From: a virus
IMG/VR virus record: IMGVR_UViG_3300025132_000028
Span: 1 to 64,000 of that record
Direction: 5' to 3' (one strand)
Length of the DNA stretch: 64,000 nucleotides
The position numbers and the translations under genes were made by a program. Below the pieces are notes generated by a model. It worked only from the letters and a program-made list of their open reading frames with translations, did not search any database and was not told the DNA's origin. Position 1 is the first letter of the stretch. The number at the start of each line of letters is the position of its first letter. Positions 7,473 to 28,514 of this stretch are shown here, one piece after another.

Positions 7473-10400
7473 ATGATAAACAAGAGAGTTAAAATAAAAG
7501 ATGTTATTGAGAGCCAACTTCCTCGGTTTGTATTAGAAGATAACCCAAAATTTGCCGATTTTCTAAGACAATACTACATTTCTCAAGAATTTCAAGGTGG
7601 TGCGATTGATCTTGCGGAAAATTTAGATCAATACATCAAATTAGATAATCTGGTTGATAATGTAATTAATCCAGACATTATTTTAGAGAGAGCGTGTACA
7701 TCTACAGACACTGATATTGTATTGTCTAGTTCTGATGGTTTGCCTGATGAATATGGTTTAATAAAAGTTGGTGATGAGATCATAACATATACTGAAAGAG
7801 ATGGTAATACTGTTAAGGGTTGTATTAGAGGGTTTAGTGGTATATCAAAGTATAGAGATGAAAACAACCCTGAAGAGTTAATTTTTGAATCTACAGATAC
7901 ATCTGCTCACGTTTCAGGAGTTGTTGTATTTGATACAACTGGATATACTGCTGCTGATTACTATTATCAGAGTGCCACCATCACTAAAATGTTTGGCATC
8001 ATTCGTGTTAAAGCTAGCGGAACTAGTGGTAGAAGCACTCCCACTACATTCAGACTAGGTATCACGAATATTGATAATGATTTTTACCAATTAAGTAATG
8101 CTAATAGAGATTCAAATGCAAATGATTTAACAACTCTTGGTATTGATTCTTTAGGTTTAAATCAAACTATTGTAATTGATGAAGGTGATACAATTGAGTT
8201 CATTGTAAATGCACAGGGATTCCCTCTTTGGATTCAAAGTACAGGTAATGGATATGATACAACTACAGTTTTAACAACTGGTATTACTAATGGTGGAGCA
8301 AGTACAACTACAACAGTTCAAAATCTTAGTGTAGAATTTTTAAAAGAGTATTATATTAAATTAAAAGAATTATATGCTCCTGGTTTTGAAGATAGAACCT
8401 TAAGTTCAGGTATTAATGTAGGAAATTTCCTCAAAAACGTAAATTCTTTCTATAAAACAAAAGGAACTAGAGAATCATTTAGAATTTTATTTAATGTTCT
8501 TTATGGTAAAAAGGTTCAAGTAGTTGACCTTGAAGATTTTGTTGTCAAATCATCTACTTCTGATTATTTAAGAAGAGCTATTGTTGTTGTAAAAGCGATT
8601 AGTGGAAATCCTCTACTACTTACTGGTCAAACTCTTTATCAAGATTCAGACCCAACTAATGCAGATGTTCAAGTTGCATCTGGTCCTATTTCTGAGGTAG
8701 AAATTTTTACTCGTCAGGGTGAAGAGTTTTATAAAATTCCTCTTTTTGTTGGATTTAACGAACAGTCTTTGGTCTCTGGTGAATTCTTTGTTCCAGGTTT
8801 TACTAAAAATACTCTACTTGCTTCTGCTAATACCAGAGTTATCAACGTAGATAGTACCGTTGGTTTTTCTAGGAGTGGTTCATTCTTTATTGATTCTCTT
8901 GGAATTACTGTAACTTACACTGATAAAAACCTAACTCAATTTTTAGGTTGTTCTGGTTTAACATCTGATCTACCAGTTGGAAGTGAAGTCAGATCTACAG
9001 TTATTGCATATGGTTATGAAGGTGGAGATTCTACTAAAAAGGTAGAAATGAGAATTACTGGAGTTCTCGGAGAGTTTGAGGCTCAAGGAAATAACTATTA
9101 TCTTGATGTTGGTAATGAAATCTATATCAAGAGTATTGGTGAAAACATTTCTCCACCTGCAGATCCATTAACATTACCGACTTATAAACAAAGAATCTTT
9201 AACTCTTGGATCTATAATATTGCAACAAGATATGAAGTAGCTGAAATTACTGGTTCTACATTGTCTGTTTCAGATAAGTTTGATAAGAGTAATTTAAGAA
9301 CAGGAGATTCTGTAGAAATTCTTGCTAGAGGAACAAATACAATTACAACAACCGCTGTTGTAACTGTTATTGATAGCAATACTCTACAATTATCTAATAC
9401 AACAGGAATTACTACTGATAGAAATTGGGATATTAGAAGAGTAATTAGTAGGGCAACTTCTAGTAATGATTTAATTGAATTTGGAAATCAAACAATTATT
9501 TCCAATATTCAAAATGCATATGTTACCAAAAATAAAGTTAATGAGTCCATGTACGTTGCGACTCAAGGTTTACCTTCTTTCTCATTTAGTGTTGATAAAG
9601 TTTTTGTCGATTTTAGAGGACAAGATGTTGGTATTGGTCAAATCGATCAATTAGTATCATTCCAGACAAATTTACCCTTTGTTACAGGTGACGAAATTGT
9701 ATATGAGGCATTATCTGGATCTACTGCCCTAGAGGGATTAGTAAGTGGTACGAGATACTTTATTTGGGTAAATCCAGCTGCTAATAATCAACTAAAACTA
9801 GCAAATGCTAGATCGTTTATTGAAGTTAGTAAATTTATTGAATTAAAAACAGGAACAGGTACACATAGACTAACTCTTGCTTCTCAGTACGGTAAGAATA
9901 TACAACCTCAAAAAATTCTAAGGCAATTCCCATTAAAACCAAGTGTTTCTTCTGGTCTTGCTCAAACCACTTCCTATGGTCCAACAGGAATGTTGATCAA
10001 TGGTATTGAAATACTAAACTATAAGTCAAATGATTACTTATATTATGGTCCTCTTCAATCTGTTGAATTAGTTAGTGGTGGTTCTGATTATGATGTTATC
10101 AATCCACCAAAAATTACAGTATCTAATCCTGGAGTTGGTGGAACAGTTGCTGTAATTAATCCTGTTCTTAGTGGATCTCTAAAGTCTTTATATCTTGAAA
10201 ACAGAGAGTCTTATGATATTGACCAAGTTTTTGGTATCAATATTGAAGGTGGTAATGGAGAAGGTGCTAGTGGTGAAATTACACTGTCTCAAGATTATAC
10301 AGAAGCAAATTTCAATGCTAAAGATATTTTAGCAAATGGTGGTGTTGATATTCCTGCGAATACACTTACTTTTATTGGGGAGCATAATTTTAAAACTGGA

Positions 10401-13400
10401 CAAAAAATTGTTTATAATCCAAATGGAAACCAACCATTAGGTGTTGCAATTACATTAGGTTCTGATGATAATACCCAGTATGATGCTGAAAATACTTTAC
10501 AATCTGGTGTTGCATATTTTGCCAATGTAATTAACACAACTACTATTAAACTTCATGAAACAGAAGATGATGCTAATGCAGGTCTTAGTACTGTTGGTAT
10601 CACAACTTTCAATACTTTAGGTATTCATAAGTTTAGATCTTTTGATTTTAAAAATAAAATTCAAAATATTTCTGTTGTTACTGAAGGTTCTGGATATAAG
10701 AAAAGAACTTATGAAACTAAAACAACAGGTATCAGTACAGGAACTAATTGTTTTATTATAAAACAACATGGTTTCCTAGACAATGAAGAAGTAATTTATC
10801 AAGCAACTAATTCTATTCGAGAATTAACCACAGAAACAAATTATAGGATTATTCGTATAAATGCAGATGCGTTTAGATTAGCTCTTTCTGAAACTGATGT
10901 TAATAGAGGTAGATATATTTTCCTTAGCGATGTTGGTAGTGGTATTCATACTGTTAAATATCCAGATATTACTGCTACTGTTGTAGCATCTATTGGTGGA
11001 ACAACAGTATCCATTCCTTGCGAACCAGATGTAAGAGGTGAGATTATTGGTGCATACTTATCTGAACCTGGATCAAATTATGGTTCTAAAGTATTAAACT
11101 TTGAAAAACCACCTCTAATTACAGTTTCAAGTGGTACTGGAGCACAATTCCAACCATTGATTAGTAATGGAGTTATTACACAGGTTCAAATCATTGGTGC
11201 TGGTTCAAATTATACTTCTGCTCCAGATTTAACAGTTACAGGTCCTACAGGTTCTGGTGCACAACTAAAGGCAAAACTTAATGCAAATGGTAAGGTTTCT
11301 ACAGTTGAGGTAATTTCTGGTGGTTTAAACTACGATGCAGAAGATACAGCTATTGTTGTAAGGTCTGTAGGACAGTCTGGTATTATTGAATCAACAGTAA
11401 GACCATTAACTGTTAATTTGCATGAAAAGTATTCAACAGATGATTTCTTAAATGCTGAGACTCAATATCCAATTCAATATGCATCTTTAGCATATTCTAC
11501 AGATCTTCAAACTGATTTTGGAGATTCTCTTGCACAAAGATCTCCTATTATTGGTTGGGCATACGATGGAAACCCAATTTTTGGTCCTTTTGCAACAAGA
11601 GATCCAAAACAAAACACAGGTATTACAACATATGTTCGTTCTGGATATCAATTAGCGAGTAATCTAGTTCCAAATAGACCAACTGCAGGAGAATATCCCG
11701 CTGGTTTCTTTGTTGAAGATTATAAGTTCATGGGAACTGGTGATCTTGATGTTCATAATGGTAGATGGTTTGTATCTGACGATTTCCCTGATGGAATTTA
11801 TGGATATGTCGCTACCCTTGAAATAGACCCAGGAACTGGTTTACCAAGAGCATCCTTCCCATATTATATTGGAGACACTTATATCGCTCCTAGAGCGTCT
11901 CAGTCCATCTCTCAGGACGATGATATTAATGCATTAGATCTTAGTAGGAATACTTATCCTTACAGATTAAAAAGTCTTAATGCTAGTTACGATTTTGTTA
12001 TCGAAGCTGATGAATTAATTGGACAAGAAGGTGTTATTGATTCTGTCTTTACTGGTGGTGTTGAAGAGTTAGAAATCGTTGAAGCAGGTGATCTTTATAA
12101 AGTTGGAAATACTTTACTATTTGATGAAGAAGGAACTAATGGTAATGGGGTATCTGCACAGGTTTCTTTCATTAAAGGTAAAAGTGTTACTGATTTACAA
12201 AGCACTAATGTTCAATTTGATGAGGTAACTTTCCAAAAAACAGGTGATACAGAAATTACAGGAATTATTCAACCAAATCATGATTTTAACAATGGTGAGG
12301 TTATCGAAATATTTAACACGAATACTGATATTAAAGGTCTTCAAGGATTCCATGTAGTTGGTGTTGCATCAGAAAGAGCTATACTTTTAGATCCAGTTAA
12401 AGCGGGAGCAGTTGGTGTTGTAACTGATCTTATTGTAAGTAGAATACCAGGAAATGTAAGTGGTGGATCTAGTATTAAATTTAGTGATGGTGAAGTTGCT
12501 AAAGTATTAAATGTAATTAAGGGTAAAAATTTAGTACGTATTGAGAGAACAGGTATTGCATCATTTAGTGCTTCTGGTACTATCAGTTATCTTCAAGATA
12601 GATTCACTATTGCTAGTGATGCTCCACAATTTGTATCTGAATTCTTCCCTAAAAAATTCTTTAATCCAAAACAAACAGTTGGTGTAGGTACAACTGTAGG
12701 TAATTATGAGACTCTTAGTTATACAGAAAATAACATTGCCCAAACTAGAGTAGTTGAGCATGGATCTATTTTCTTAAATAAACATCCTTTCTTGGATGGA
12801 CAAAAAGCTTTATTTGTTAAGAAATCAGGTCAACTTTCTCTTGGTGTTGCTACTGCAATTGGTATTGGAACAACAGCTACTCTTGTTGCCGATTCTTTAC
12901 CTAGATCAGGTGTCGAACAAGAAGTTTTCATTATATACAAATCAATCAATACAATTGGCATCAAAACTCAGAAAAATGGTGCTGAATTGTTCTTTACTAG
13001 CGATGGTAGTGACGATGATGGATATTTTGTTCAAGGTATCGGTACAGCAGTAAGAGGATCTGTATTACAACCAACTACAACAGTTACTACAACTCAAGCT
13101 CATGGGTTAAAAATAGGAGATACTGTTAACTTTAATGTAATTGCAAATCAAGAAGTTGGTTTAGGTGCAAGTTCTAGAGTAAGAATAGAACTTAATTCTG
13201 AAGGTTTGATTATTGTTGATTCTCAAGGCATTTCTTCTACTGGCGTTAATACATCGACTAATAGAATTTCTATTTCAGGTAATAATTTTAGAACAGGTGA
13301 TAGAGTTTACTATGAACCTAAATCAGAAGTTATTGGTGGACTAGGAACTGGTAGATATTACATTTACAGAGATTCTCCTGAAAATTTCAGATTATGTGAA

Positions 13401-16400
13401 ACATATGAAGATTCTGTGGCAGATGTCCCCGTTATAGTTTCTTTAACAAGTATTGGTGGTACGAGTCATAACTTTGGTTTAATTAATCCAAAAGTAGAAA
13501 TTCCTAGCAGATCTACAACTGTATTTGATTTACAAAACTATGAGTTAAATGGATATAATTTCAAAATTTATTATGACCAAGGATTTAATAGTGAGTTTGT
13601 AGGAACTGGTCAAAGTACATCTGCTGAAGTTGGTGATGTTCTTGATGCAGAAGATCGTGTAATTAGTATTGGTAACACTTATGCTAGATTAGATGTTAAT
13701 AATAATACCTTCTGTCCTAAGATTCTCTATTATAATGTTACTAAAGATGGAACACCATTAATTCCAGATAATGATGTAAAAGAAAATAATACTATTAAGT
13801 ATGTGGATAGTGCATACACTGGTATGTTTACGATCACTGGTATTGGTACTTCCGCAGTTGGAGTCGGTACTACTACATTTAGTTTTGCGATCGCAAAAAA
13901 TCCAGAGCAAGTTTCTTATGCTGCAACTGAGGGTAGAAGGTTCTATGCTACTGGTGCTGTTGGTCCAGAAGGTCCAATTGATCAGATTAGTTTACTATCC
14001 AGTGGAGAATTCTATAGAAAATTACCAAGATTCTTAGGTGTTGATTCTGAAAATGGTGATAACTCCACTATTAAACCAAAATCAACCAGAATTGGTCAAA
14101 TTAACTCAATTCAGTTAGTAAATGAAGGATTTAACTATTCTTCTGATACTACTTTAAGACCAATTGTTGATGTTCCTACTGTTACTACTATTAGAGACTT
14201 TAATACTGTTGGTACAATTAGTATTTTATCTAATGGTAAGAACTATATTTCTGCTCCTAAGTTAGAACTTGTTGATAGATTTGTAGGTACAAAAGTTCCT
14301 GGTGCTAATATTGTTGCAAGAATTAATGAAAACTCAGGTTCTATTGTAGATACAGAAATTGCAGCTAATCCTGTAGGTCTACAAAATAGAGAGTATAGGT
14401 TATATTCAGTTAATAATACAAACGGTATTGTCATCACAAAATCAGAATCTAACCCAACTAGAAGTGGTATTGTAACATTTACAATTTCTACTCCTGTTCT
14501 TGGGTTTAGTTCTCCTCCATTTGCTGTTAATGATGAAGTTTGGATCGAAGGTTTTTCAAAAGATTCTGGTTCAGATGGTTATAACTCATCTGATCATCTA
14601 TACAATTTCTTAAAAGTTAATAATGTTGTAACAACTAATCCATTCTCCTTTGAAGTTGATTATTCAAATTACACATTTAATGTTGGTTTGGGTGTTAGTG
14701 ATACTCAAAACTTCTCTCGTGTTATTGGTAAAGAAGAACTACCTACATTTAGTATTGGTTTACAACAAGCTTCATTTGATAAAAATGAAAAACTACTTGT
14801 AAATAATGCAGAGACTGATTTACAAGTTATCTCTTTTGATGCAACTGCTGAAAATATTAAGTTTGTTGGTACTGCTCCTATTGTTCCTGATGATATTATC
14901 ATTGGAGCAAAGAGTGGTAGTCAAGCAAAAGTTGTAGAAATCTTAAGATTTGATGGTGTTTACAGTGTAGAAGCTGAAACAGATAAGACTATTGAAGGAA
15001 CATCTGATTCTGGAAAACTAAATTCAAGTGCTCAAGTTATCCAAGATAATAATTATTATCAGAATCTTTCATATACACTTAAAACTGAAGTCTCTTATGA
15101 AGATTGTATTGATGCGGTAAACAACAGTGTTCACCCAACAGGTCTTAAAAACTTTGTTGATAGTCAGTTAGTAACTATTGGTAAGAATGCTGGTATTCAA
15201 ACTTCTACTACTGTTACTAATGCTACAGTAGATCTTGTTGAAGAAGTAAGAGTTGATGATCAATATTATTTTGATATAGGTAGAGATGTTAATATTGCAA
15301 CTAGAAGTGAGGTAGAACTCAGTAATGAGATTGAATTGGAAAATGCAAAATTATCTGACTATTTTGAATCTATTACAAACAGAGTTCTAAACATTGACGA
15401 TATTTCAAGTCAGTTTAGTAATATTAGTAATCCAAACACTTTGGATCTATTTGAAAATATTTACAGATATCCATTTAACTTTATCTCAAATAGATTCCTT
15501 GTTCAAATTACTAGTGAAGATCGTAGAGATTTCCAAGTTTCTGAAATTACTATTCTTCAAGATGGAACTAATACTTACTATGCAGAACCAACCTTTAAGA
15601 AATTACATAGTACACCACAAGAAATAGGAACTCTTGAAGGTTCTGTAGACACAGAGAATTCACAAGTTCGTTTAAGATTCTTCCCTGCTGATCCATTTGA
15701 TAAAAATTATGATATTAAAGTTCTAAATCAGTTTTATAATACTGAATCAACACTGACTGGTATTGGTACCACTGCGTTTGGTTTTGCTGCTCTAATGGGT
15801 TCTGATGCTGAAATTGGACCTTCTACATCTAAATCTTTTGTTTCTGTTGCAGCAACAAACTTTGATTATCTACATTCTCAAGTTGAAGTAGAAACTGTAT
15901 CTTCTGGTCAAAAAGAGACCATGTTTGTTGAACTGAAAGCAATTCATGATGGAAATGATAGTTATATGTCTGAATATAATATCATTCTTTCTGATGGTTC
16001 TTTTGGTGGTACTAACGCAGGTGCATTTGGTACATTTGGAACTACTTATGATCCTAGTGGTAATAACTTTAGTATTGAATTTTATAATGCTAGACCTTCT
16101 GAGTTTGTAAACTTAAAAGCAAGAACATTAGGTTTTGGTAATACTACTGGAACTACTAACAGAGACTATAGATTCTTAGCAACAGGAATGATTCCTAATA
16201 ACGAAAGATCTGCTCAGTATTATACTGAATATCAGACTGTTGGTGTTGGATCTACCGCAAACTTTGCTGGTATTAAGAGTGATATTCAGTCCGTAAACCA
16301 GTGTACAATGGTTGTTGGATATGGAAGGACAGTATCTGCCTTCCAGTATATGTTCTTGAATGACCAACTTGGTGATTCTCTATACTTCTCGGAATATCCC

Positions 16401-19400
16401 GTATTATCGGTCGGTAATACGACGGGTCTGGGAACGGTATTTGCCAAATATGATGGTGAAAAGGCTGTTCTTGTGTTTACACCTGAGGCAGGTATAAATG
16501 ACAAAATGTTCATGAGAACATTTAATGAAGTCCTTTACTTAGAACTTGAAAGAAATATTGTAAATCCATTGGAATATGGAGCAGTTGTTGAAGAAACTTT
16601 CAATACTACTTACACAGGTTTGAATTTCAGAAATATCTTTGAATTCCCAATGTTGTGGAATGGATATCCAATTTTCTCTAAAACATTTAATCCTTCTAAT
16701 ACTTCTGCACTTAATCTTGCTACTGGTCAATTTACTATTAAAAATCACTTCTTTGCAAGTGGTCAAGAATTAGAATATCTCCCTGGTGGAACATTTGTTG
16801 GTGTTGTCACAGCACCAATGACTCTTGCAAACGGAAATCCTCTACCATCTCCAGTTTACGCAATTAAAGATAATGAAGATCAGTTTAGAATCGGTCTCAG
16901 CACGGTAGCTGCCTTAGCTGGTATTGGAACTACTTTAGGATCTGTTGGTGCAGGTAATCTTCACGAATTTGATTCAACTGGTAAACTATCCAGATCTCTT
17001 ATTGCGATTGATGGTCTTGTTCAAAAACCACTTACTTGGTCACCAATTACTAGGACTCTAGAGAATAATACAACTCTTTCTGGTTCTAGTCTTGGTCTTG
17101 GTAAAACTTCCACATTTATGGCAGTTTCTGGTATTTCATCTATTGTTCTTGGTGATTTATTTGAGATTAATGATGAATTTGTACTTGTTGAAGCTGTTGG
17201 TGTTGGAACAACTACTACTGATATTAATTCTAGTGGTATTGGTACAATTAACTTATGTAAGATTCAACGTGGTTCAGTAGGAACAGCAGCATCGTTCCAT
17301 GCTAATGGTTCAATAATTCAAAAATACACTGGTTCTTATAACTTCTCTAGAAATAATATTTTCTTCACTGGTGCTCCTAATGGTGGTAAATCTTCTGATG
17401 AAGCATCTACAACTGGTATACCAGAAGCAGGATCTAGTTTTAATGGAAGAGTTTATTTGAGAAAAAATTATGATTCCAATAAAATCTTTGATGATATTTC
17501 TGGTCAGTTTACTGGTATTGCAAAAACATTTACTCTTAGATCTGAAGGTGAAGATATAACTGGTATTGGTAGTGAAGGTGGTTTTGGTATCTTCTTTGTG
17601 AACAATATGTTCCAAAAACCACAAACTCCAAATAACTTTAATGCAAACCTATTCATTAGAGAAACTGGTGGTCAGACTGATCTAACTTTCACTGGTATTC
17701 TTAATGAAAGTGGAGATCCTATTGTTTCTGCAACAGATATTAACCAAAATGGTTTACCTAGAGGTGGTGTTGTTGTTACTTTAGGTTCTAGCGAAGGTAA
17801 AGGATTTGCAAACCTAGGTAATCCATCTATTGGTGCTTCTATCAACCATGCAGGTGAAGTTTATAAGATTCTGACTGCACCAACAACTCAAGGAATGAGT
17901 AGCATTACCAATTATGTCTACGATCATACTATAGGACTTTCTACAGTTACAACCTCACAAGCACATGGATTAGAAGCAGGTGATAGTATTGATTTTGTAG
18001 GTATTGGATTTACTTGTGTACCAACTAAATCTGGAATTACTACTGGTGTCTTCCCATATACTAGAGGTCAGAAGAAGACTGTGGTTGACTTCCTTTATGA
18101 TAATAAAACTGGAATGGCAACAGTAACCACTCTAGAAAGATTTGGTATTTTAGAAGTAGGTGAGGAAGTATTCTTCAATGGTATTGGTTTCACATGTATT
18201 GGTCAAAAGTTTGCTCAAATCAGTCAGAAAGCTGGAATTACAACCACTCTCTTCCCTTGTAGAGCAGGTATTGCTAAGACTATCTCTGCCTTTAATTATG
18301 ATAATCAGTCTGGTATTGCTACTATTACTTTGGCAACTCCTCACAGATATGTGGAAGGGGAAAGACTCTTTATTGAAAATCTTAACTTAAAGTGTGGATA
18401 TGGTGCTAACATTACTAATGCCATCTATGACGCACCAACAGGTCTTACAACAATAACTACAGCAACTCCTCATAAATTCTCCAAAGGAGATAAGGTTAGA
18501 TTGCAGGGTCTTGAATTCTCTTGTGCTGGATATGGAATAACATTTGCTATTTCTACCTTTGAATATAATAATTCTACAGGTATTACTACGATTACAACTC
18601 CTAGTCCTCATGGAGCACTACCTGGAGAACAGATAAAATTAACTGGTCTTGGATTTACATGTCCAAAAGTTAATGTTGGAACACCTATTGGATTTACTTA
18701 TGAACCTTTAACTGGTCTTTCTACAGTCACATTTGCTTCTAATCATGGATTAACAAATGGTGATAAAATCTCCATTGGTGCAAGTAGTATTGTATTTACA
18801 TGTACTTTAGATGGTGGTGCTACAACTCATCCATATCCTCGTCCTACAGACTTTGCATATAATAAGTATCTACCAATTTCAGGTGTAACTACAAATTCAT
18901 TCCAAGTTAATGTTGGAACTGGTGGTACAGGTACATTCCCACATACCTTTGTTAGTGCAACTACAAATGCGATTAAAACTCTTAACTATCTTGGAGTAAC
19001 AACTTCAACATTCCCAGATGGTACACAGGGAAATCAATTCAGAGTTACTAAAGTTCTTTCTCCAACCAAGATTCTAACAAATGTTGGTATAACTTCTATT
19101 CCTCATGTTTATACTGAAGGTGGTGAGGTACAGGTTGGTGTTACATCTCATATCTACCCAACTGGTAAATATGGATTTGAATTTATTGTTTCTAGCACAC
19201 CAACTAGAAATAAGTTCAGAGTTAACGTAGGACCTTCCACAATTGCTCACACTTATGTAAGTGGTGGTACTGCACTTCTTGGATTAAGTACAACCATATA
19301 TCCATCATCGCAATCAGGTATTGGTCACAGTATAACTGACTTTATTTACGATAATACTACTGGTCTTTCTACTATTACTGTTGCAAGAAATTCTATACCA

Positions 19401-22400
19401 TTTGCATTGGGTGATAGAGTCAACTTTGCTGGTTTAGGATTTACATGTCCTAGTGGTTTTGCTGGTCTAACATCAACTATTTTCCCACAATCATTAGGAA
19501 GAAAATATAATATTGGAACAGTTTTCTATAATAATGCTACTGGTCTTGCTACTGTAACCACAACTGCTGCTCATGATTTTAAAGTAACAGATAGTCTAGA
19601 TTTACAAAATCTTCTCTTTAATTGTTCTTCAGCATATGCTGGCGTAACTACTCATAGATTCCCAGATTATGTTGACGAACCTAATAGATCTTACAGAGTT
19701 CTAAGAATAGTTGATCCAAATACAATCTGGGTTGATGTTGGTGTTTCTACAATTGTTCACACATATAACCTTGGTAGACATACATGGGTAGGAGGAACAG
19801 CAAGTAATGCAGTTCAGTCTGGTGGTAATTATGTACATACATTCTTATCTGCTGTAACAAATGGAGTTACAAGTGACGTTGGTAATTTACCAAACCCAAT
19901 TACAAACGTAGCATATACTCCTAACACAGGTAATATGGTAATTACCTCTGCTACTCATTTATTAACAACTTCTAATACACTTACCATCGCTGATAACGCA
20001 TTGTCCTTCACATGTACAATGGATGGAAATACAGCAACGAAGACTTATCCAAGATCTACTGACCCTGTATCTGGACAAACTATTACTATTACAGGAACAA
20101 CTACTAATACTATTACAATTAACGTTGGAGCATCACCTATTGTTAATCATGATGTAACAAATGCTACTTATGACAACGATACAGGTGTAATGGTCTTAAC
20201 TATTGGTGCCCATACTCTAACAACTGGAACCAGTATTAAGATAGCAAACGGAGCATTGAGTTTTACATGCGAGGACGATAATAATGTAACAACTAAGACT
20301 TATCCTCGTGCTAGTGACCCTTATTATGATACTGCAATTAACATTGATGCAGTAGGGGCAGATACTATTACATTAAATGTTGGAATTAATACTCGTGGTA
20401 CAGTTTCTGCAATTAAGAAAACTGGTCCTTATGAAGTAACCAGACTTCTTGCACCTAGACCATATGATGTAACTAATGCCATCTATGATCCTGTTGTAGG
20501 TATCATGACTGTTACTGTTGGTAATGGACATGGTATTTCTGTTGGTGAAACTGTTGATATTGGAACTAATGCATTAACATTTACCTGTGATATGGATTCC
20601 ACAGGTTCTCAAAAAACATATCCAAGAAATTTAATTAAAACCTTTACAGCAACTAATGCCATCTATGATCCTGTTGTAGGTGTAACAACTATAACTGTTG
20701 CTGGTCATGGCATGGATGATGGATGTTGGGTCAAATTAGCAGATGAATCATTATCATTCATATGTGGTTATGGTGTAACTACTCATATATTTGTATCTGC
20801 AACAACTAATGCTGTTAATGTCCAGAGTGGTGCAGAATCTGGAAATGAAAAGACCCCTAACGCAGCAACTTATAATGCATCAACAGGTCTTCTTACATTA
20901 GGATTTGCAGCTGCTCATGGAATGTCAACTAGTGATACAATTACTCTTGATTTCAATTCATTAACATTTACTTGTGCTGCAGATTATCATGCAACAACCC
21001 ACACATATCCTCGTGTTACTGATCCTATTGCAGGAGTAACCACTGCTGTAACTGTTACATCAGGAACTGAGTTTACACTTAATGTTGGAGATTCTCTAGG
21101 AAGTAAGAGTGCAAAATCATATCCACGTTCTAGTGATCCTATTAGTGGAGAATGGATACAAGTTTCTAATACTACAACAGATACTTTTGAGATTCAGTCT
21201 TTATCTGACAATTCTACCCCATCTACAAACATAGATGCACATACATTTACATCTGCTGTAACAGGTGGTATTACACATAAAGTAGATAAATCATTCGAGC
21301 AACCAGTTTCAGTTGTTGGCGTTGGAAATACTACCATCGATCTTCAAGTTGGTAGATCACCGATAGTTAATTTCAACGTAACTAACGCTACATACGAACC
21401 AACAACAGGTGTTATGGAGTTGACTATTGGTTCTCATGCTTTTGCAGTCGGTCAACATATAAAATTAGCAGATAACTCAATATCATTTACTTGTACTTTA
21501 GATGGTAACACTTTAGTCAAGTCATATCCTCGTGCTAGTGGTACTGGTATCAATGCTGGTACTCCAGATTATGCATATCAGAAATCTTTAGAAATTAGTG
21601 CAGTAACCTCAACGACTATTACTATCAATGTCAACTCTAGTGTAGGTCTTTCTTCTATCAGTGACTTATCTGCTCATACATTTGATAGTGCAACTGCAGG
21701 CGCTGTTATTGCAGGTGGTAACTATGCACATACATTTGTTGGTGTTGCTACTGGTGCTATCACAAAAGGTGGTCCTAGATTCAACTGTAACGTCGGTATT
21801 ACCACTTACAAACACAACTATACACCTTCAATTGGCGTTGGTGAAGTAAGAAAACAGAACTTTGGTGGTGTAGATGATACCTTTATCGTAACTGGTATTG
21901 TCGGTAAGAAGTCGTTTACAATTGATGCTGGTATTTCAACTTATACTCACTTCTACGATGTAGATACAAAAAATGCAATCAGTAAGAAGAAACTAAGGAC
22001 TGATTCATTCATTGTTGATACTATTTACAGTGATAGGTCATTTAGAACTAATGTAGGGGTTTCTTCATATCGTCACGTATACGATCCAAAACCAAGTAAA
22101 GAACCTGGTGGTATTAGTAGTATTACTGGAATGACATACAACACCTCTACTGGTATTGCAACATTTACTGTTCCTAATCATGGAGCAATTGGTGGTGAAC
22201 TAATCAGTATTTCTGGTCTTGCCTTAACTTGTCCTGGCGGTACAGGTATTACAACTCATATTTTCCCAGATCCTAATGGTTTAAGTAGAAATATTAGCAC
22301 CGCTAATTATAATAATTTCACAGGTATAATGACAGTGACCACTAACGTTGGTCATGGTGTTACATTTGTTGGTCAGTTTGTAAAACTTGAAAATCTTGGT

Positions 22401-25400
22401 TTCGCTTGTACTGGCGGAGCTGGTGGAAGTCATACTTTTGTAAGTGCAGCAACTAGCGCAGTCCAGACTGGTGGTAACTATACACATACATTTGTTCCTC
22501 AATTTGGTTTGACACCAGATACTGCTTTGTATGATCCAGTTACAGGTATAATGACTGTTACTAATCAGCAATTGACTGTATCAGATGCGATTTATGATCC
22601 TGTTAGTGGTGAAATGACATTGACTGTTGGAGTTCATAGATTAACAAATTATGATAGTGTACGTCTTGACACAGAATCAATATCCTTTAGTTGTGTATTT
22701 GAAGGTAAGTTACAAACTAAGGCATATCCAAGATCAAATGGTAATGATTATGTCTATGATAAGGATTTACCAATCATACGTTATACATCTGACACAATTA
22801 CAGTCAATGTTAATGGTGGAAAAGGTGCTATCAGTCATGCTGTTCCTCATACCTTCATGAGTGCTACTTCAAAGGGTGTTAAAGTTAATCATGGATTAAG
22901 AAATGGTGATTATATTAAGTTTGATGATTATGCAGTAACATTTACATGTAATAAAGATGGTAATGCAACTCTTCATCCATATCCAAGACCTACTGATCCT
23001 CTTAGTGGTACATTTACACAGGTTACTGTTGTTGATGAGAACAAATTTAGTGTAGGAGTATTAACAGTTACACCTTCCACAGATACTTCAGTTCATACAT
23101 TTGTATCTGCTCTTGAGGGTGGTATTAAGAAAGAAGTAATTAATAGTGGCGGTGACCATCCACATACATTTGTTGGTACAGCAACTAGTGCAATCCAATC
23201 AGGTGGTAATTATGTTCATACATTCTTATCTGCTGTAGCAAACAGTGTTACCTCAAATGTTGGTAATTTACCTAATGCAGTAACAGATGTAGTATATACA
23301 CCTTCCAGTGGTGATATGGTAATTACTTCTGCTGCTCATTTATTAACTGGATCAAATACAATTTCTATTGCTAATAATGGATTATCCTTTACCTGTACAA
23401 TGGATGGCAATACAGCGACTAAGACATATCCTAGATCAACTGATCCTATTTCTGGAATTGCAACTGCTATTACAGCAACAACCACAGATACATTTACAAT
23501 CAACGTTGGTGCATCACCTATCGTAAATCATGATGTTACGGATGCAACTTATGATGCAGCGACAGGTGTGATGGTACTAACAATAGGTGCTCATACATTA
23601 CCAACTGGAACAAGTGTTAAGATTGCTAATGGTTCACTACCATTTACTTGCACAATGGATGGTAATACATCAACGAAGAATTATCCAAGATCTACTGATC
23701 CATTCTATGATACTGCTGTTGGTATTGCTTCGACAACCAGTACTACAATCACACTTAATGTAGGTAAATCTCCTATTCTCCCATTTGATGTTAGTGCTGC
23801 AACTTACGATGCTGCTACAGGTGTAATGGTAGTAAACATTGGTGCTCATACCTTAAAAACTGGAACAAGTGTTAAAATTAATGAAAAATCATTACTATTC
23901 ACATGTTCACAGGATGATAATGCAACAGTTCATGCATATCCTCGTTCAACTACTGCTTCTCTTACCGCAACAACTGGCACAGTTTATGATCCTGTTGTAG
24001 GTATCATGACCATCACCACTCCTGCTGCTCATGGAATGAAAAATGGTGATGAAGTTAAATTTGCTGATGGTGCGGTTTCATTCTCATGTCAATATGGTGT
24101 AGGTTCAGCACATACATGGGCTGGTGGAACAGTAACTGATGCTGTTACAATTACTGTTGGTCCTGTCCAGACAAAACATGATGTAACTAATGCCACATAT
24201 AATCCTGCAACTGGTGTTATGGTATTTACCATTGGGGCACATAGTTTCACAACTGATGACTTAGTAGAAATTGGTGCTGAGAAGTTTGCATTTACTTGTA
24301 CTGCTGACGGTAACGTCAAGACTAAGTATTATCCTCGTGCAACTGATCCTGCATATAATACTCCTCTATTAATTACTGCTGTAGACCAAGCTGGTGGAAC
24401 AATCACAGTTAATGTTGGTGCTACTAGTGGAACTGTGGCAACCGCATATCCTCGTTCTACTGATTTCATTAGTAATAGGTGGGTTGAAATTTCTAATGTA
24501 ACCACAAAAACATTTGATGTCCAAGTATTAGATGTAATCCCTTCTACAAATACTGATGCTCATACATTTGTATCTGGAGTTACTAATGGCATCACATTCA
24601 AACGTGCAAAAGACCCATACTATAATACTTCTGTTGCTATTGCTGCTACAACTAGTGATACAGTCAGTTTAAATGTTGGTGTATCAACTATCGTAAATTA
24701 TAATGTTTCTGATGCGAGTTACGATCCAAATTCAGGTAAAATGGTACTTACCATTGGTTCTCATGACTTAGATGTAGGAACAAGTATCAAGATAGCAGAT
24801 AACTCACTCACATTTACATGTGATAAAGATAATAATGCGACTCAGCATAGTTATCCTAGAACTCTTATAGAGACTAAAACTGTAACTGATGCTAATTACG
24901 ATCCTACTACTGGTATGATGGTACTTACTGTTCCTAACCACGGATTTGAGAATGGTAGGCAAATTAAGTTAGCAGATAATTCATTAACATTTACTTGTAC
25001 TCTTGATGGAAATACTACAAATAAAACTTATCCAAGACCAACTGATCCTTTCAGTGGTAAGTGGATAAAAGTACAAAACGTCACTACAAATACTTTTGAA
25101 GTACAAACATTAGCAACTGTACCTTCCACAAACGTTTCTGTACATACATTTGTAAGTGCAACTGATGAAGGTTTATCACATAAGAGAGATCCATTCTATG
25201 ATAATAATATTAATATTGAGGCAAGAACTCCAAATACTATTACTGTTAATATTGGTGCAACTCCAGATCTTCAGCAGAGTACTGGATTAACAGGACCAAC
25301 ATATTTCACTGATGTTCCTATCACTGGATTTAACTATACTAACGCTACTGGTGTTACAACTATAACCGCAGTTGGTCATGGACTAACAACAGGTGAAAAT

Positions 25401-28400
25401 GTAAAACTATCTGGTATTGCTTTGACATGTACTTCTGGTATGAAAACATATCCAGATGGTGGAACAGGATTCTTCTTCGGAGTAACTAACGTTATTGATG
25501 CTAATACTTTCGTAACAAACACAGGTATCTCAACTATAGTACACACATATGTCAGTGGTGGTAATGTAAGAACTGGTGTTACAAGTGACAAGTTCCCTAA
25601 TCCTCAAGGTTCATTTAGTAAGATTGCTAATTTTGAATATAACAATATGACTGGTTTGGCAACAGTAACAACCAATGGTTTCAATCAACTTGGAACTGGG
25701 CAGTTAATTAACTTTGAAAATATCCATATGCTTTGCCCAATTGGTAGTGGTACTACACATGTATTCCCACAAGATACTGGAACAGTTGTTAATATTAGTA
25801 ACTTCCAATATGATAATCAGTCTGGTATTGCGACCGTTACTACCGCAACCAACCATAATTTTGTCCGATTTAAGAAGGTTAGATTGCAGGGTATGACCGT
25901 ATCATGTGCATATGGTTCTAAGACTTATCCAGATAAGCAAACTGACTTTGAATTAACGACTATTGTTAACTCAACAACATTTGTAACTAATGTAGGAGTA
26001 TCAACTCTTGCTCATACATATGTTTCTGGTGGTACTGCAGCAGAAGTTAAATTTGCTGGTCCTTACACAGTTAAGGAAAGAATTGACAGAAATACATTCA
26101 CTGTTAATGTTGGTGTTTCTACTTACGTCCATACTTATGATCACTCTGGTAGAGTATCTCCTGTAAGATATACTGGACCTTATGAAGTACTTGCTATTAC
26201 TAATAGTAAGGAATATACCATCAATGTTGGAAGATCTCCAATTGCTCATACTTACACTGGTGGCGGTACATCCAAACCACAACAATACACTGGTCCTTAT
26301 AAGATAATTGCTGCACCTGACGCAAATACATTAAGAGTAAGAGTTGGTATTTCGACTTATCAACACTTCTACGGTAGTGGAGGTATGATTGCTAGGTTAC
26401 GCTCTGGTATTGCTGAGAAGAAACTAAATCCAGGTCCATTTAGAGTTAAAGATGTATATTCTGCTACTGAATTTACTACTGACGTTGGTATCTGTACATT
26501 TAAACACTTCTATCACTCTGGTGGTAAAGTTGGTAAGGTTAATCAATTCTTCCCTGGTAGTGGATTCTATGGAAATAATGTTCCAGTAACAGTAGTTCCT
26601 GAAAATGGTGTTGGAAGTGGTTTAACAGTTACTACTACAGTTGGTTTTGGTGGAAGTCTTGTTCCTTCTCTAGATTATGTTGGAACTGGATTTACTATTG
26701 CTCCAAGGTTAGAAACTCCTGGACCAGCTTATGATGATCTCCCAGTTAGAGGTCTCTTTAGACTAGGTATTGGTCAGACAACTGCTACTGGTATTGGATT
26801 ATCTGTAACTTTAAATGTTGGTGGTATTAGTACTAGTGGTGTTGCATCAGAAACAAGTGGCGTTAAAAACTTTACAATTGGAAACAGAGGATATGGTTTC
26901 CAACTCAATGATAAAGTTAGTCCTGTTGGTTTAGTAACCGCTGCGAAAATCCTTGCTGGATCTAAGACCGTTGGTTACACAACTGAAACTGAACCATTTG
27001 AACTTACAGTTATTGATACATTCTCTGATACTTTCTACGGATGGCAATTCGGTCAACTTGATTATATTGATGATATTACTTCATTACAAGATGGTGTAAC
27101 AAAGAGATTCCCACTATTCCAAAATGAGCAGTTAGTCAGTTTTGAGAAAGCAGATGGAACACCTATTAGTTTCCCATCACTTCTTATCATCTTTATTAAT
27201 GGTGTTCTTCAAATTCCAAACAAAGATTACATATTTGAAGGTGGTACTGCATTTGAATTCACAAGTCCTCCACAAGAGGCAGACCAAGTTACAATTTACT
27301 TCTATAGAGGTAGTAATGATGATGTTAATACTGTTAACGTAGTTGAATCCATTAAAATTGGTGATGAATTAATCTTAATTAAACCAGTTGGTGTTTCTAC
27401 TGTTCCAGATCAAGACCCAAGAGTTGTTAATGAAATTGTTGCATCTGATATTCTTGCAACTAACTTATACTCTCTACAGGGTATTGATAACAACTTCAAG
27501 AGACCTGTTGTTTGGAGAAAACAAAAAGTTGATAGAACTGTTGATGGACGTATTATTCCTAAGACTCGTGAAGCACTAGAACCACAAATCTATCCAACAG
27601 CAAGAATTATTGGTTCTGCATCTACAACTCAAGATTTCCTCTTCCTTGATAATGCTAGTTTGTTTAACTATGAAGCAGTGACTCCATCTACCAACTTCGA
27701 TGGTATCATTACTCAAGGAGAAGATCCAGTTGTAGGTATTCTAAGTGTTGGAGTAAATGCTGGTACAATTTCTACAATCACTGTTATCAATGGTGGTTCT
27801 GGATATACTGGAATCGTAACAATTTCCATATCCAATCCACCTGATATCACGGTTGGTTTTGGAACAACTGCATTAGCAACTGCAATTATTTCCAACGGTG
27901 CAGTTATTGGTGCAAATATCACCAATGCTGGTAGTGGATATGGAACAAGTGCATATGCGTTATTACCAACTCCACCTGTAAGTATTGAAAGTGTTTCATT
28001 AATACCAACTGTAAATGGTTATGAAGGTGATATTATTGGAATTGCAACTGCCACTGGAATTGGTACCAATCTCAGCGTCAAGTTTACTTTAGATCTTCCA
28101 AATTCTCCATCAGATACTCTTAGAGATGGAATGAGAATATTTGTTAACAATACTAATGTTGGTTCAGGTGTAACTTCTATTGATACCAACAACTCTCAAG
28201 TAATTGGTATTGGAACAACTGCTTGTGATAACATCTTTAAGGTTCACCAAGTTCAGTATGATGCAGGTAACGGAATCATAACCGCTTTCTGTAATATTGA
28301 TTCAAATTCAAATACTTCTGGACTTAATACTGTTGGATTTGCATACACTAATGTCGGTTTCTACAGTTGGGGAATTGTTACTGGATTTAGTAGAGGAACT

Positions 28401-28514
28401 GCTCCAATTGCAATAAATGTTGATGGAAATACGTTCTCTGTTGGTCTCGGATCATACCCACTTTTCCAGAGAAGAGGGTTTGGTTTAAGGGGTACTGGAG
28501 GAATCACAAAATAA
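7473..28514 (+). CDS. giant 7,013-residue baseplate/tail structural protein at the gene 7 position
   Basis: One open frame of 7,013 codons occupies the gene 7 slot between 6 and 8; T4 gp7 has about 1,030 residues. The N-terminus (FVLEDNPKFADFLRQYYISQ) is typical of cyanophage proteins in this slot. A YHYH-type domain lies at about 1350-1470 (GWAYDGNPIFGPF, later DLDVHNGRWF and FPYYIGDTY). Residues 3476-6355 are about 28 related modules, each with one FTC-like Cys. Residues 6537-6600 (DGVTKRFPL, FINGVLQIPNKDY, DQVTIYFYRG) are a domain common in these phages. G-x-G-Y beta repeats occur throughout. By position it should join the wedge or project from the baseplate; a host-contact role is inference. 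No frameshift is evident. Confidence 0.85.
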   Translation: MINKRVKIKDVIESQLPRFVLEDNPKFADFLRQYYISQEFQGGAIDLAENLDQYIKLDNLVDNVINPDIILERACTSTDTDIVLSSSDGLPDEYGLIKVGDEIITYTERDGNTVKGCIRGFSGISKYRDENNPEELIFESTDTSAHVSGVVVFDTTGYTAADYYYQSATITKMFGIIRVKASGTSGRSTPTTFRLGITNIDNDFYQLSNANRDSNANDLTTLGIDSLGLNQTIVIDEGDTIEFIVNAQGFPLWIQSTGNGYDTTTVLTTGITNGGASTTTTVQNLSVEFLKEYYIKLKELYAPGFEDRTLSSGINVGNFLKNVNSFYKTKGTRESFRILFNVLYGKKVQVVDLEDFVVKSSTSDYLRRAIVVVKAISGNPLLLTGQTLYQDSDPTNADVQVASGPISEVEIFTRQGEEFYKIPLFVGFNEQSLVSGEFFVPGFTKNTLLASANTRVINVDSTVGFSRSGSFFIDSLGITVTYTDKNLTQFLGCSGLTSDLPVGSEVRSTVIAYGYEGGDSTKKVEMRITGVLGEFEAQGNNYYLDVGNEIYIKSIGENISPPADPLTLPTYKQRIFNSWIYNIATRYEVAEITGSTLSVSDKFDKSNLRTGDSVEILARGTNTITTTAVVTVIDSNTLQLSNTTGITTDRNWDIRRVISRATSSNDLIEFGNQTIISNIQNAYVTKNKVNESMYVATQGLPSFSFSVDKVFVDFRGQDVGIGQIDQLVSFQTNLPFVTGDEIVYEALSGSTALEGLVSGTRYFIWVNPAANNQLKLANARSFIEVSKFIELKTGTGTHRLTLASQYGKNIQPQKILRQFPLKPSVSSGLAQTTSYGPTGMLINGIEILNYKSNDYLYYGPLQSVELVSGGSDYDVINPPKITVSNPGVGGTVAVINPVLSGSLKSLYLENRESYDIDQVFGINIEGGNGEGASGEITLSQDYTEANFNAKDILANGGVDIPANTLTFIGEHNFKTGQKIVYNPNGNQPLGVAITLGSDDNTQYDAENTLQSGVAYFANVINTTTIKLHETEDDANAGLSTVGITTFNTLGIHKFRSFDFKNKIQNISVVTEGSGYKKRTYETKTTGISTGTNCFIIKQHGFLDNEEVIYQATNSIRELTTETNYRIIRINADAFRLALSETDVNRGRYIFLSDVGSGIHTVKYPDITATVVASIGGTTVSIPCEPDVRGEIIGAYLSEPGSNYGSKVLNFEKPPLITVSSGTGAQFQPLISNGVITQVQIIGAGSNYTSAPDLTVTGPTGSGAQLKAKLNANGKVSTVEVISGGLNYDAEDTAIVVRSVGQSGIIESTVRPLTVNLHEKYSTDDFLNAETQYPIQYASLAYSTDLQTDFGDSLAQRSPIIGWAYDGNPIFGPFATRDPKQNTGITTYVRSGYQLASNLVPNRPTAGEYPAGFFVEDYKFMGTGDLDVHNGRWFVSDDFPDGIYGYVATLEIDPGTGLPRASFPYYIGDTYIAPRASQSISQDDDINALDLSRNTYPYRLKSLNASYDFVIEADELIGQEGVIDSVFTGGVEELEIVEAGDLYKVGNTLLFDEEGTNGNGVSAQVSFIKGKSVTDLQSTNVQFDEVTFQKTGDTEITGIIQPNHDFNNGEVIEIFNTNTDIKGLQGFHVVGVASERAILLDPVKAGAVGVVTDLIVSRIPGNVSGGSSIKFSDGEVAKVLNVIKGKNLVRIERTGIASFSASGTISYLQDRFTIASDAPQFVSEFFPKKFFNPKQTVGVGTTVGNYETLSYTENNIAQTRVVEHGSIFLNKHPFLDGQKALFVKKSGQLSLGVATAIGIGTTATLVADSLPRSGVEQEVFIIYKSINTIGIKTQKNGAELFFTSDGSDDDGYFVQGIGTAVRGSVLQPTTTVTTTQAHGLKIGDTVNFNVIANQEVGLGASSRVRIELNSEGLIIVDSQGISSTGVNTSTNRISISGNNFRTGDRVYYEPKSEVIGGLGTGRYYIYRDSPENFRLCETYEDSVADVPVIVSLTSIGGTSHNFGLINPKVEIPSRSTTVFDLQNYELNGYNFKIYYDQGFNSEFVGTGQSTSAEVGDVLDAEDRVISIGNTYARLDVNNNTFCPKILYYNVTKDGTPLIPDNDVKENNTIKYVDSAYTGMFTITGIGTSAVGVGTTTFSFAIAKNPEQVSYAATEGRRFYATGAVGPEGPIDQISLLSSGEFYRKLPRFLGVDSENGDNSTIKPKSTRIGQINSIQLVNEGFNYSSDTTLRPIVDVPTVTTIRDFNTVGTISILSNGKNYISAPKLELVDRFVGTKVPGANIVARINENSGSIVDTEIAANPVGLQNREYRLYSVNNTNGIVITKSESNPTRSGIVTFTISTPVLGFSSPPFAVNDEVWIEGFSKDSGSDGYNSSDHLYNFLKVNNVVTTNPFSFEVDYSNYTFNVGLGVSDTQNFSRVIGKEELPTFSIGLQQASFDKNEKLLVNNAETDLQVISFDATAENIKFVGTAPIVPDDIIIGAKSGSQAKVVEILRFDGVYSVEAETDKTIEGTSDSGKLNSSAQVIQDNNYYQNLSYTLKTEVSYEDCIDAVNNSVHPTGLKNFVDSQLVTIGKNAGIQTSTTVTNATVDLVEEVRVDDQYYFDIGRDVNIATRSEVELSNEIELENAKLSDYFESITNRVLNIDDISSQFSNISNPNTLDLFENIYRYPFNFISNRFLVQITSEDRRDFQVSEITILQDGTNTYYAEPTFKKLHSTPQEIGTLEGSVDTENSQVRLRFFPADPFDKNYDIKVLNQFYNTESTLTGIGTTAFGFAALMGSDAEIGPSTSKSFVSVAATNFDYLHSQVEVETVSSGQKETMFVELKAIHDGNDSYMSEYNIILSDGSFGGTNAGAFGTFGTTYDPSGNNFSIEFYNARPSEFVNLKARTLGFGNTTGTTNRDYRFLATGMIPNNERSAQYYTEYQTVGVGSTANFAGIKSDIQSVNQCTMVVGYGRTVSAFQYMFLNDQLGDSLYFSEYPVLSVGNTTGLGTVFAKYDGEKAVLVFTPEAGINDKMFMRTFNEVLYLELERNIVNPLEYGAVVEETFNTTYTGLNFRNIFEFPMLWNGYPIFSKTFNPSNTSALNLATGQFTIKNHFFASGQELEYLPGGTFVGVVTAPMTLANGNPLPSPVYAIKDNEDQFRIGLSTVAALAGIGTTLGSVGAGNLHEFDSTGKLSRSLIAIDGLVQKPLTWSPITRTLENNTTLSGSSLGLGKTSTFMAVSGISSIVLGDLFEINDEFVLVEAVGVGTTTTDINSSGIGTINLCKIQRGSVGTAASFHANGSIIQKYTGSYNFSRNNIFFTGAPNGGKSSDEASTTGIPEAGSSFNGRVYLRKNYDSNKIFDDISGQFTGIAKTFTLRSEGEDITGIGSEGGFGIFFVNNMFQKPQTPNNFNANLFIRETGGQTDLTFTGILNESGDPIVSATDINQNGLPRGGVVVTLGSSEGKGFANLGNPSIGASINHAGEVYKILTAPTTQGMSSITNYVYDHTIGLSTVTTSQAHGLEAGDSIDFVGIGFTCVPTKSGITTGVFPYTRGQKKTVVDFLYDNKTGMATVTTLERFGILEVGEEVFFNGIGFTCIGQKFAQISQKAGITTTLFPCRAGIAKTISAFNYDNQSGIATITLATPHRYVEGERLFIENLNLKCGYGANITNAIYDAPTGLTTITTATPHKFSKGDKVRLQGLEFSCAGYGITFAISTFEYNNSTGITTITTPSPHGALPGEQIKLTGLGFTCPKVNVGTPIGFTYEPLTGLSTVTFASNHGLTNGDKISIGASSIVFTCTLDGGATTHPYPRPTDFAYNKYLPISGVTTNSFQVNVGTGGTGTFPHTFVSATTNAIKTLNYLGVTTSTFPDGTQGNQFRVTKVLSPTKILTNVGITSIPHVYTEGGEVQVGVTSHIYPTGKYGFEFIVSSTPTRNKFRVNVGPSTIAHTYVSGGTALLGLSTTIYPSSQSGIGHSITDFIYDNTTGLSTITVARNSIPFALGDRVNFAGLGFTCPSGFAGLTSTIFPQSLGRKYNIGTVFYNNATGLATVTTTAAHDFKVTDSLDLQNLLFNCSSAYAGVTTHRFPDYVDEPNRSYRVLRIVDPNTIWVDVGVSTIVHTYNLGRHTWVGGTASNAVQSGGNYVHTFLSAVTNGVTSDVGNLPNPITNVAYTPNTGNMVITSATHLLTTSNTLTIADNALSFTCTMDGNTATKTYPRSTDPVSGQTITITGTTTNTITINVGASPIVNHDVTNATYDNDTGVMVLTIGAHTLTTGTSIKIANGALSFTCEDDNNVTTKTYPRASDPYYDTAINIDAVGADTITLNVGINTRGTVSAIKKTGPYEVTRLLAPRPYDVTNAIYDPVVGIMTVTVGNGHGISVGETVDIGTNALTFTCDMDSTGSQKTYPRNLIKTFTATNAIYDPVVGVTTITVAGHGMDDGCWVKLADESLSFICGYGVTTHIFVSATTNAVNVQSGAESGNEKTPNAATYNASTGLLTLGFAAAHGMSTSDTITLDFNSLTFTCAADYHATTHTYPRVTDPIAGVTTAVTVTSGTEFTLNVGDSLGSKSAKSYPRSSDPISGEWIQVSNTTTDTFEIQSLSDNSTPSTNIDAHTFTSAVTGGITHKVDKSFEQPVSVVGVGNTTIDLQVGRSPIVNFNVTNATYEPTTGVMELTIGSHAFAVGQHIKLADNSISFTCTLDGNTLVKSYPRASGTGINAGTPDYAYQKSLEISAVTSTTITINVNSSVGLSSISDLSAHTFDSATAGAVIAGGNYAHTFVGVATGAITKGGPRFNCNVGITTYKHNYTPSIGVGEVRKQNFGGVDDTFIVTGIVGKKSFTIDAGISTYTHFYDVDTKNAISKKKLRTDSFIVDTIYSDRSFRTNVGVSSYRHVYDPKPSKEPGGISSITGMTYNTSTGIATFTVPNHGAIGGELISISGLALTCPGGTGITTHIFPDPNGLSRNISTANYNNFTGIMTVTTNVGHGVTFVGQFVKLENLGFACTGGAGGSHTFVSAATSAVQTGGNYTHTFVPQFGLTPDTALYDPVTGIMTVTNQQLTVSDAIYDPVSGEMTLTVGVHRLTNYDSVRLDTESISFSCVFEGKLQTKAYPRSNGNDYVYDKDLPIIRYTSDTITVNVNGGKGAISHAVPHTFMSATSKGVKVNHGLRNGDYIKFDDYAVTFTCNKDGNATLHPYPRPTDPLSGTFTQVTVVDENKFSVGVLTVTPSTDTSVHTFVSALEGGIKKEVINSGGDHPHTFVGTATSAIQSGGNYVHTFLSAVANSVTSNVGNLPNAVTDVVYTPSSGDMVITSAAHLLTGSNTISIANNGLSFTCTMDGNTATKTYPRSTDPISGIATAITATTTDTFTINVGASPIVNHDVTDATYDAATGVMVLTIGAHTLPTGTSVKIANGSLPFTCTMDGNTSTKNYPRSTDPFYDTAVGIASTTSTTITLNVGKSPILPFDVSAATYDAATGVMVVNIGAHTLKTGTSVKINEKSLLFTCSQDDNATVHAYPRSTTASLTATTGTVYDPVVGIMTITTPAAHGMKNGDEVKFADGAVSFSCQYGVGSAHTWAGGTVTDAVTITVGPVQTKHDVTNATYNPATGVMVFTIGAHSFTTDDLVEIGAEKFAFTCTADGNVKTKYYPRATDPAYNTPLLITAVDQAGGTITVNVGATSGTVATAYPRSTDFISNRWVEISNVTTKTFDVQVLDVIPSTNTDAHTFVSGVTNGITFKRAKDPYYNTSVAIAATTSDTVSLNVGVSTIVNYNVSDASYDPNSGKMVLTIGSHDLDVGTSIKIADNSLTFTCDKDNNATQHSYPRTLIETKTVTDANYDPTTGMMVLTVPNHGFENGRQIKLADNSLTFTCTLDGNTTNKTYPRPTDPFSGKWIKVQNVTTNTFEVQTLATVPSTNVSVHTFVSATDEGLSHKRDPFYDNNINIEARTPNTITVNIGATPDLQQSTGLTGPTYFTDVPITGFNYTNATGVTTITAVGHGLTTGENVKLSGIALTCTSGMKTYPDGGTGFFFGVTNVIDANTFVTNTGISTIVHTYVSGGNVRTGVTSDKFPNPQGSFSKIANFEYNNMTGLATVTTNGFNQLGTGQLINFENIHMLCPIGSGTTHVFPQDTGTVVNISNFQYDNQSGIATVTTATNHNFVRFKKVRLQGMTVSCAYGSKTYPDKQTDFELTTIVNSTTFVTNVGVSTLAHTYVSGGTAAEVKFAGPYTVKERIDRNTFTVNVGVSTYVHTYDHSGRVSPVRYTGPYEVLAITNSKEYTINVGRSPIAHTYTGGGTSKPQQYTGPYKIIAAPDANTLRVRVGISTYQHFYGSGGMIARLRSGIAEKKLNPGPFRVKDVYSATEFTTDVGICTFKHFYHSGGKVGKVNQFFPGSGFYGNNVPVTVVPENGVGSGLTVTTTVGFGGSLVPSLDYVGTGFTIAPRLETPGPAYDDLPVRGLFRLGIGQTTATGIGLSVTLNVGGISTSGVASETSGVKNFTIGNRGYGFQLNDKVSPVGLVTAAKILAGSKTVGYTTETEPFELTVIDTFSDTFYGWQFGQLDYIDDITSLQDGVTKRFPLFQNEQLVSFEKADGTPISFPSLLIIFINGVLQIPNKDYIFEGGTAFEFTSPPQEADQVTIYFYRGSNDDVNTVNVVESIKIGDELILIKPVGVSTVPDQDPRVVNEIVASDILATNLYSLQGIDNNFKRPVVWRKQKVDRTVDGRIIPKTREALEPQIYPTARIIGSASTTQDFLFLDNASLFNYEAVTPSTNFDGIITQGEDPVVGILSVGVNAGTISTITVINGGSGYTGIVTISISNPPDITVGFGTTALATAIISNGAVIGANITNAGSGYGTSAYALLPTPPVSIESVSLIPTVNGYEGDIIGIATATGIGTNLSVKFTLDLPNSPSDTLRDGMRIFVNNTNVGSGVTSIDTNNSQVIGIGTTACDNIFKVHQVQYDAGNGIITAFCNIDSNSNTSGLNTVGFAYTNVGFYSWGIVTGFSRGTAPIAINVDGNTFSVGLGSYPLFQRRGFGLRGTGGITK
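19811..20270 (+). repeat. long duplicated block in the giant gene, copy A
   Basis: About 460 nt that align without visible gaps to 23192-23651, exactly 3,381 nt (1,127 codons) downstream. Both encode QSGGNYVHTFLSAV, VGNLPN, FTCTMDGNTATKTYPRSTDP and NVGASPIVNHDVT in the same order. Confidence 0.75.
23192..23651 (+). repeat. long duplicated block in the giant gene, copy B
   Basis: The second copy of the 460-nt block at 19811. Most differences are third-position changes, with some amino acid replacements, for example ITNVAYTPNTGN against VTDVVYTPSSGD. The reading frame is kept throughout. Confidence 0.75.

Follow-up and report, generated by a model that had tools for sequence, protein, structure and literature searches.

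A single 21-kb gene fills the place of T4 gene 7 in a T4-like cyanomyovirus and probably encodes a baseplate wedge subunit that combines a split gp7 core, serving as the anchor, with a modular arm of variable length. The gene lies in a window of 64,000 nucleotides (positions 1 to 64,000 of the 72,663-base IMG/VR virus record IMGVR_UViG_3300025132_000028). Giant proteins in this slot are a general cyanophage trait, recognized for years, and the 7,013-residue product described here is one member of that family.

An intact giant frame in the gene 7 slot

On the + strand, positions 7473-28514 form one ATG-to-stop frame of 7,013 codons with no internal stop, beginning one base past the stop codon of gene 6. 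The remaining two + frames across the same interval contain 384 and 962 stops, with longest runs of 91 and 56 codons, respectively, so that the giant frame is far beyond chance. The preliminary description of this DNA had reported an unbroken + strand frame flanked by genes 6 and 8, and both statements were borne out, the former by its recurrence on other contigs and the latter by Pfam matches of the neighboring products (Table 1). The description had also raised the worry that the frame is broken or misassembled across repeats. A repetitive protein on a metagenomic contig does invite suspicion of collapsed or chimeric repeats, but the longest exact DNA repeat within the ORF is only 31 nt, TRF detected no array within it, and four further contigs carry the frame. 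IMG/VR contig 3300049735 encodes an identical protein of 7,013 aa, and contig 3300017738 an essentially identical one that is truncated at the contig end; contigs 3300025151 (G002; 6,914 aa) and 3300020283 (G004; 7,120 aa) retain the intact frame at ~91-96% identity, diverged throughout. Cultured isolates have similar genes as well. The giant frame is confirmed as real and intact, and the probability of an assembly artefact is negligible. Across all five regions measured, repeats included, dN/dS was 0.15-0.26 against G002 and 0.15-0.32 against G004 (two sequence pairs and a simple method), which argues for translation and maintenance of the whole protein under purifying selection acting over its full length.

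Table 1. Features of the giant gene and its neighbors in the window
Feature	Residues	Position	Strand	Basis
gp25-like baseplate wedge protein		5172..5579	+	phrog_261 2e-46; Pfam GPW_gp25 9.6e-12
gp6-like baseplate wedge protein		5579..7471	+	phrog_219 2e-190; Gp6-like_1st 1.7e-16
Giant gp7-slot protein	7,013 aa	7473..28514	+	phrog_2885 "baseplate wedge subunit"
N-terminal module	1-151	7473..7925	+	cyanophage conservation
Insert (~129-130 aa)	152-281	7926..8315	+	missing in aligned cyanophage isolates
gp7 core piece 1	316-484	8418..8924	+	T4 gp7 723-849
Large insertion inside gp7 core	~541-2535	9093..15077	+	hhalign core boundaries
YHYH-family domain	1269-1450	11277..11822	+	Pfam YHYH (PF14240) 5.3e-24, cut-off passed
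gp7 core piece 2, HPxG motif	2536-2567	15078..15173	+	T4 gp7 866-897
Conserved stem, core to array	2568-3466	15174..17870	+	collinear 31-36% identity, cyanophage gp7s
Array of ~80-residue all-beta repeat	3478-6175	17904..25997	+	HMM
85-residue unit	~5348-5432	23514..23768	+	lacking in G002; one extra unit in G004
Conserved C-terminal region	6391-7013	26643..28511	+	no Pfam match
gp8-like baseplate wedge protein		28564..30120	+	phrog_438 1.8e-148; Phage-Gp8 4.6e-15
VrlC-like baseplate protein	2,478 aa	30130..37566	+	phrog_358; DUF4815 3.2e-59

The giant protein matches along the phrog_2885 profile (4,179 aa), with hits in all three of its thirds (E 0 to 1.6e-181), and occupies the same slot as the other family members, which lie between genes 6 and 8 or, in some phages, before gp9-like genes. 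The slot after gp8 holds a VrlC-like gene, as in the deposited annotation of cyanophages, where it is likewise named VrlC/VriC, and is followed by genes for gp13, gp14, a sheath stabilizer, terminase, sheath, portal, and capsid. Because the capsid protein shares 70-74% identity with cyanophage capsids (the best being those of Sf-CH5/CH8 and S-T4) and the gene context agrees, the phage is a T4-like cyanomyovirus infecting marine picocyanobacteria. Elsewhere in the window, two likely auxiliary metabolic genes were observed: one is tryptophan halogenase-like (61033-62316, phrog_2928), and the other belongs to the "ferredoxin" family phrog_3704 (4432-5118).

The exceptional size implied by the preliminary description proved overstated. 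According to deposited annotation, the gene 7 slot of cyanophage isolates encodes proteins ranging from 1,937 aa in S-CREM2 through 3,048 in S-PM2, 3,895 in S-SRM01, 4,225 in ACG-2014f, 4,314 in S-CAM7, 4,454 in P-HM2, 4,749 in S-T4, 4,878 in Sf-CH8, 5,195 in P-SSM2 (annotated gp7), 6,376 in Syn33, 6,395 in S-RIM8, and 6,603 in S-TIM4 to 8,573 in P-RSM6. Environmental contigs bearing the N-terminal module mostly have open frames of 3,587-5,216 aa, and another cluster lies near 8,030 aa (G036, G037, G040, and G041); a record size for the 7,013-residue protein was therefore rejected. Relatives of the N-terminal module occur in at least 579 viral-contig stretches. In Synechococcus phage S-SKS1 (NC_020851, 118000-143000), the slot consists of long, partly annotated open segments in different frames, probably reflecting frameshift errors in the record. 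Nearer members of phrog_2885 (P-SSM2, S-T4, Sf-CH8, S-SRM01, and ACG-2014f) are collinear with residues 1-3466 and 6391-7013, S-RIM8, Syn33, S-TIM4, and P-RSM6 being more distant, and the repeat described below is present in many members. Our literature search found no paper on the giant protein itself.

A split and partial resemblance to T4 gp7

At the sequence level, only 200-odd residues of the giant protein resemble T4 gp7 (1,032 aa; 5HX2, 5IV5), which shares the same gene order, and they fall in separated pieces. Residues 7-36 are collinear with T4 gp7 643-672 in a profile comparison that is weak by itself. Residues 316-484 align with T4 723-849 (hhalign E 5e-6, probability 86), and residues 2536-2567, carrying a VHPxG motif, align with T4 866-897 (E 4e-4 and probability 36% over 32 columns); reversed controls gave E values of 0.69 and 0.9. 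An HMM of T4-type gp7 matched the 7,013-residue protein with an E value of 2.5e-6 and nearly all family members at one place, marginally in some, while hmmsearch also matched several individual members at the position of core piece 2. Structural comparison points to the same region. Although AF2 modeled residues 1-620 with low overall confidence (mean pLDDT 61), the model's top three Foldseek matches in the PDB were gp7 chains (9f4a, 5iv5, and 5hx2). VIA aligned model residues 364-539 to gp7 763-851 with a Z score of 9.2, in a register that agrees with the sequence match; two unrelated chains on the same list score similarly (Z 9.4).

The two core pieces are ~15 residues apart in T4 gp7, whereas ~2,050 residues separate them in the giant protein, about 2,000-2,050 of which were inserted between the core halves. 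Some 4,400 further residues follow at the C-terminus relative to T4 gp7. Searched slice by slice, the family alignment gave no match to T4 gp7 residues 1-640; the C-terminal 620 residues had none to T4 gp7, and the N-terminal module, as a sequence or as an alignment, had none in the PDB. Since T4 1-640 lacks a detectable counterpart, the giant protein is best described as a homologue of part of gp7, not of full-length gp7. The earlier proposal of a greatly expanded wedge protein thus holds for the gene 7 slot and for gp7 homology, but that homology is partial and does not lie where it had been sought: the resembling pieces are at ~7-484 and 2536-2567, not at 1-110 and 6350-7013.

The split core is family-wide, not peculiar to the 7,013-residue protein, and, within a limited literature search, apparently undescribed. 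ORF122 of S-CREM2 (1,937 aa) has the N-terminal module and an HPAG motif in common with the giant protein but stops soon past core piece 2 (1868-1921 of 1,937), without stem, array, or C-terminal region. Virions of S-CREM2 yielded 91 unique peptides of this gene-7-slot protein (PMC10665884). The simplest reading of these comparisons is that two additions occurred: an old insertion into the core, which every cyanophage examined has, followed by the acquisition of the stem, array, and end region, or else their loss in S-CREM2. T4 gp7 has been described as missing from cyano- and pelagimyophages, with VrlC as its replacement (PMC7029224); for the giant-protein family, the sequence and model comparisons instead indicate that a gp7 homologue is present.

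The large core insertion contains a domain of the YHYH family, for which a YHYH motif or His-rich site and a predicted metal-dependent hydrolase function have been described (PMC7824862). Neither a YHYH nor an HYH motif occurs anywhere in the 7,013-residue protein, so a metal-dependent hydrolase role for residues 1269-1450 is unlikely. The shorter insert at residues 152-281 distinguishes the giant protein from other phrog_2885 members; it had no tblastn match among phages at E<=0.01 and no Pfam match, and by eye it looks cupredoxin-like. Matches to DUF5522 were discarded, as they cover 18-20 residues and fall under the family cut-off.

A repeat array between a conserved stem and end region

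The array that follows the stem yielded 32 HMM matches at a domain E<=1e-3 and 34 at a looser cut. Full-length matches number 13, and the remaining ones may represent half units, so the domain count is uncertain. A shuffled control gave no repeat matches. Among relatives, no repeats were found in S-SRM01, S-PM2, and S-CREM2, one each in S-CAM7, ACG-2014f, S-RIM8, and Syn33, six in S-T4 and P-HM2, seven in Sf-CH8, 11 in P-SSM2 and in contig G007 (61% identical), 19 in P-RSM6, and 20 in G036. The 7,013-residue protein has the longest repeat string in the set examined (32 versus 0-20), with close relatives at 31-33. Relatives without repeats are near 3,900 aa. S-SRM01 (3,895 aa) aligns with residues 282-3466 and 6362-7013 and with almost nothing between; as it joins 3466 to 6362 directly, the ~2,900 extra residues correspond to the array region.

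The array evidently changes through gain and loss of whole units, judging from the sequences of close relatives. The length differences of G002 and G004 amount to the loss or gain of one 85-residue unit plus a neighboring step of 18-19 residues at one place, the exact placement in the array being ambiguous, and DNA self-BLAST revealed a 544-nt block repeated within the array at 76% identity.

An AF2 model of two repeat units is all-beta and confident (mean pLDDT 91). Compared with solved structures, the unit scores Z 6.0-6.4 with an rmsd of 2.1-2.3 over 63-66 residues, where a Z below 8 may reflect a common arrangement. The best structures are a head-tail chain of phage FCWL1 (9JLF_E), the phi92 endosialidase (4HIZ), and E1 enzymes, whose matched segment we take to be the FCCH domain. 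Foldseek found nothing significant for the repeat in the PDB (E>0.5), a PDB sequence search with the repeat profile returned no match, Pfam had no match, and FCCH-like domains showed no sequence match to the repeat; a literature search on FCCH and phage yielded nothing relevant. On the basis of the model, the repeat is tentatively assigned as an FCCH-like small barrel. In viruses, the repeat matches structural proteins of cyanophages, among them a baseplate wedge initiator of S-SSM7, and it is present also in cyanophage fiber and neck proteins. The gp14 neck protein of this phage (39409-40794) was observed to carry a C-terminal extension of ~280 residues that partly matches cyanophage structural/tail-fiber modules.

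Residues 6391-7013 are ~40% identical in P-SSM2 and Sf-CH8 and 42-45% identical in S-SRM01 (36-44% by tblastn). In comparisons with close relatives, conservation in the bin 6750-7000 is 86-88%, among the lowest values along the protein.

Proposed role and competing readings

T4 baseplates contain six copies of gp7. In the cyanophage protein, the fixed part corresponds to residues ~640-900 of T4 gp7, in its second half, and the two pieces of this part would fold together with gp6 in the manner of the T4 wedge, anchoring six copies per baseplate while the inserted segment loops outward. The gene order 25-6-7-8 supports this wedge reading. The array would act as a spacer arm that carries the C-terminal region or sets its position at the rim of the baseplate, the array length tuned by recombination through unit gain and loss, and the arm most likely would contact the cyanobacterial surface or neighboring baseplate parts; the repeat may also do something other than spacing. 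Six copies would add ~42,000 residues per virion, modest beside the capsid, so the translation cost raised in the preliminary description is no strong objection.

Two competing readings concern whether the protein is a wedge subunit in one piece. It could be a tail-fiber or adhesin polyprotein that sits in the gene 7 slot while VrlC has the gp7 role, the gp7 similarity being a relic or docking motif. The published claim that VrlC replaces gp7 (PMC7029224), the PHROG families annotated as tail fiber or structural that most of the protein matches, and the sharing of its repeats with fiber and neck proteins all fit such a view. We consider it unlikely, as the sequence and fold matches to gp7 share one register and VrlC coexists as a separate gene behind gp8 in the same genomes, and so does not occupy the gene 7 place. 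Even less probable is a precursor cleaved into an arm and a wedge part that enter the virion as separate proteins: the modular layout would permit processing, and the S-SKS1 slot is annotated in several pieces (though frameshifts in that record look likelier), but we found no protease site or gene arrangement pointing to cleavage, and a cut before residue 2567 would break a core that spans residues 7-2567.

A more serious contender retains the split-core anchoring and assigns the arm to internal baseplate scaffolding, for example linking neighboring wedges or forming a second baseplate layer, with no host contact. The C-terminal region is 36-44% conserved over cyanophages, a moderate level that is less usual for a receptor-binding tip and could fit a structural part inside the baseplate as well; VrlC has moreover been linked to two-layered baseplates (PMC7029224). 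A variable array, with no units at all in S-SRM01, suits a fixed scaffold poorly, however, as does the comparatively low conservation of bin 6750-7000 in close relatives, and we regard scaffolding as possible but the weaker reading. Under the preferred reading of an anchored arm, the long flexible structure for host contact envisaged in the preliminary description is plausible. No gp9-12 homologues were found between gp8 and gp13, which may leave room for an attachment role, although these genes could lie elsewhere, as the record looks incomplete. The fullest version of the proposal, in which a looped-out core insertion and a one-fold arm with recombination-stepped reach serve host attachment in place of the missing short-fiber genes gp9-12, is speculative and rather doubtful.

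Giant gp7-slot proteins rank with the largest proteins of viruses, their carriers are very abundant in the ocean, and our search found no structure of any of them. The split-core anatomy predicts which residues belong to the wedge and which to appendages, and would make a cryo-EM map interpretable. A gp7 homologue in these phages disagrees with the published claim of gp7 absence, and close relatives, whose arms differ in length by whole units, form a natural series for relating arm length to host range.
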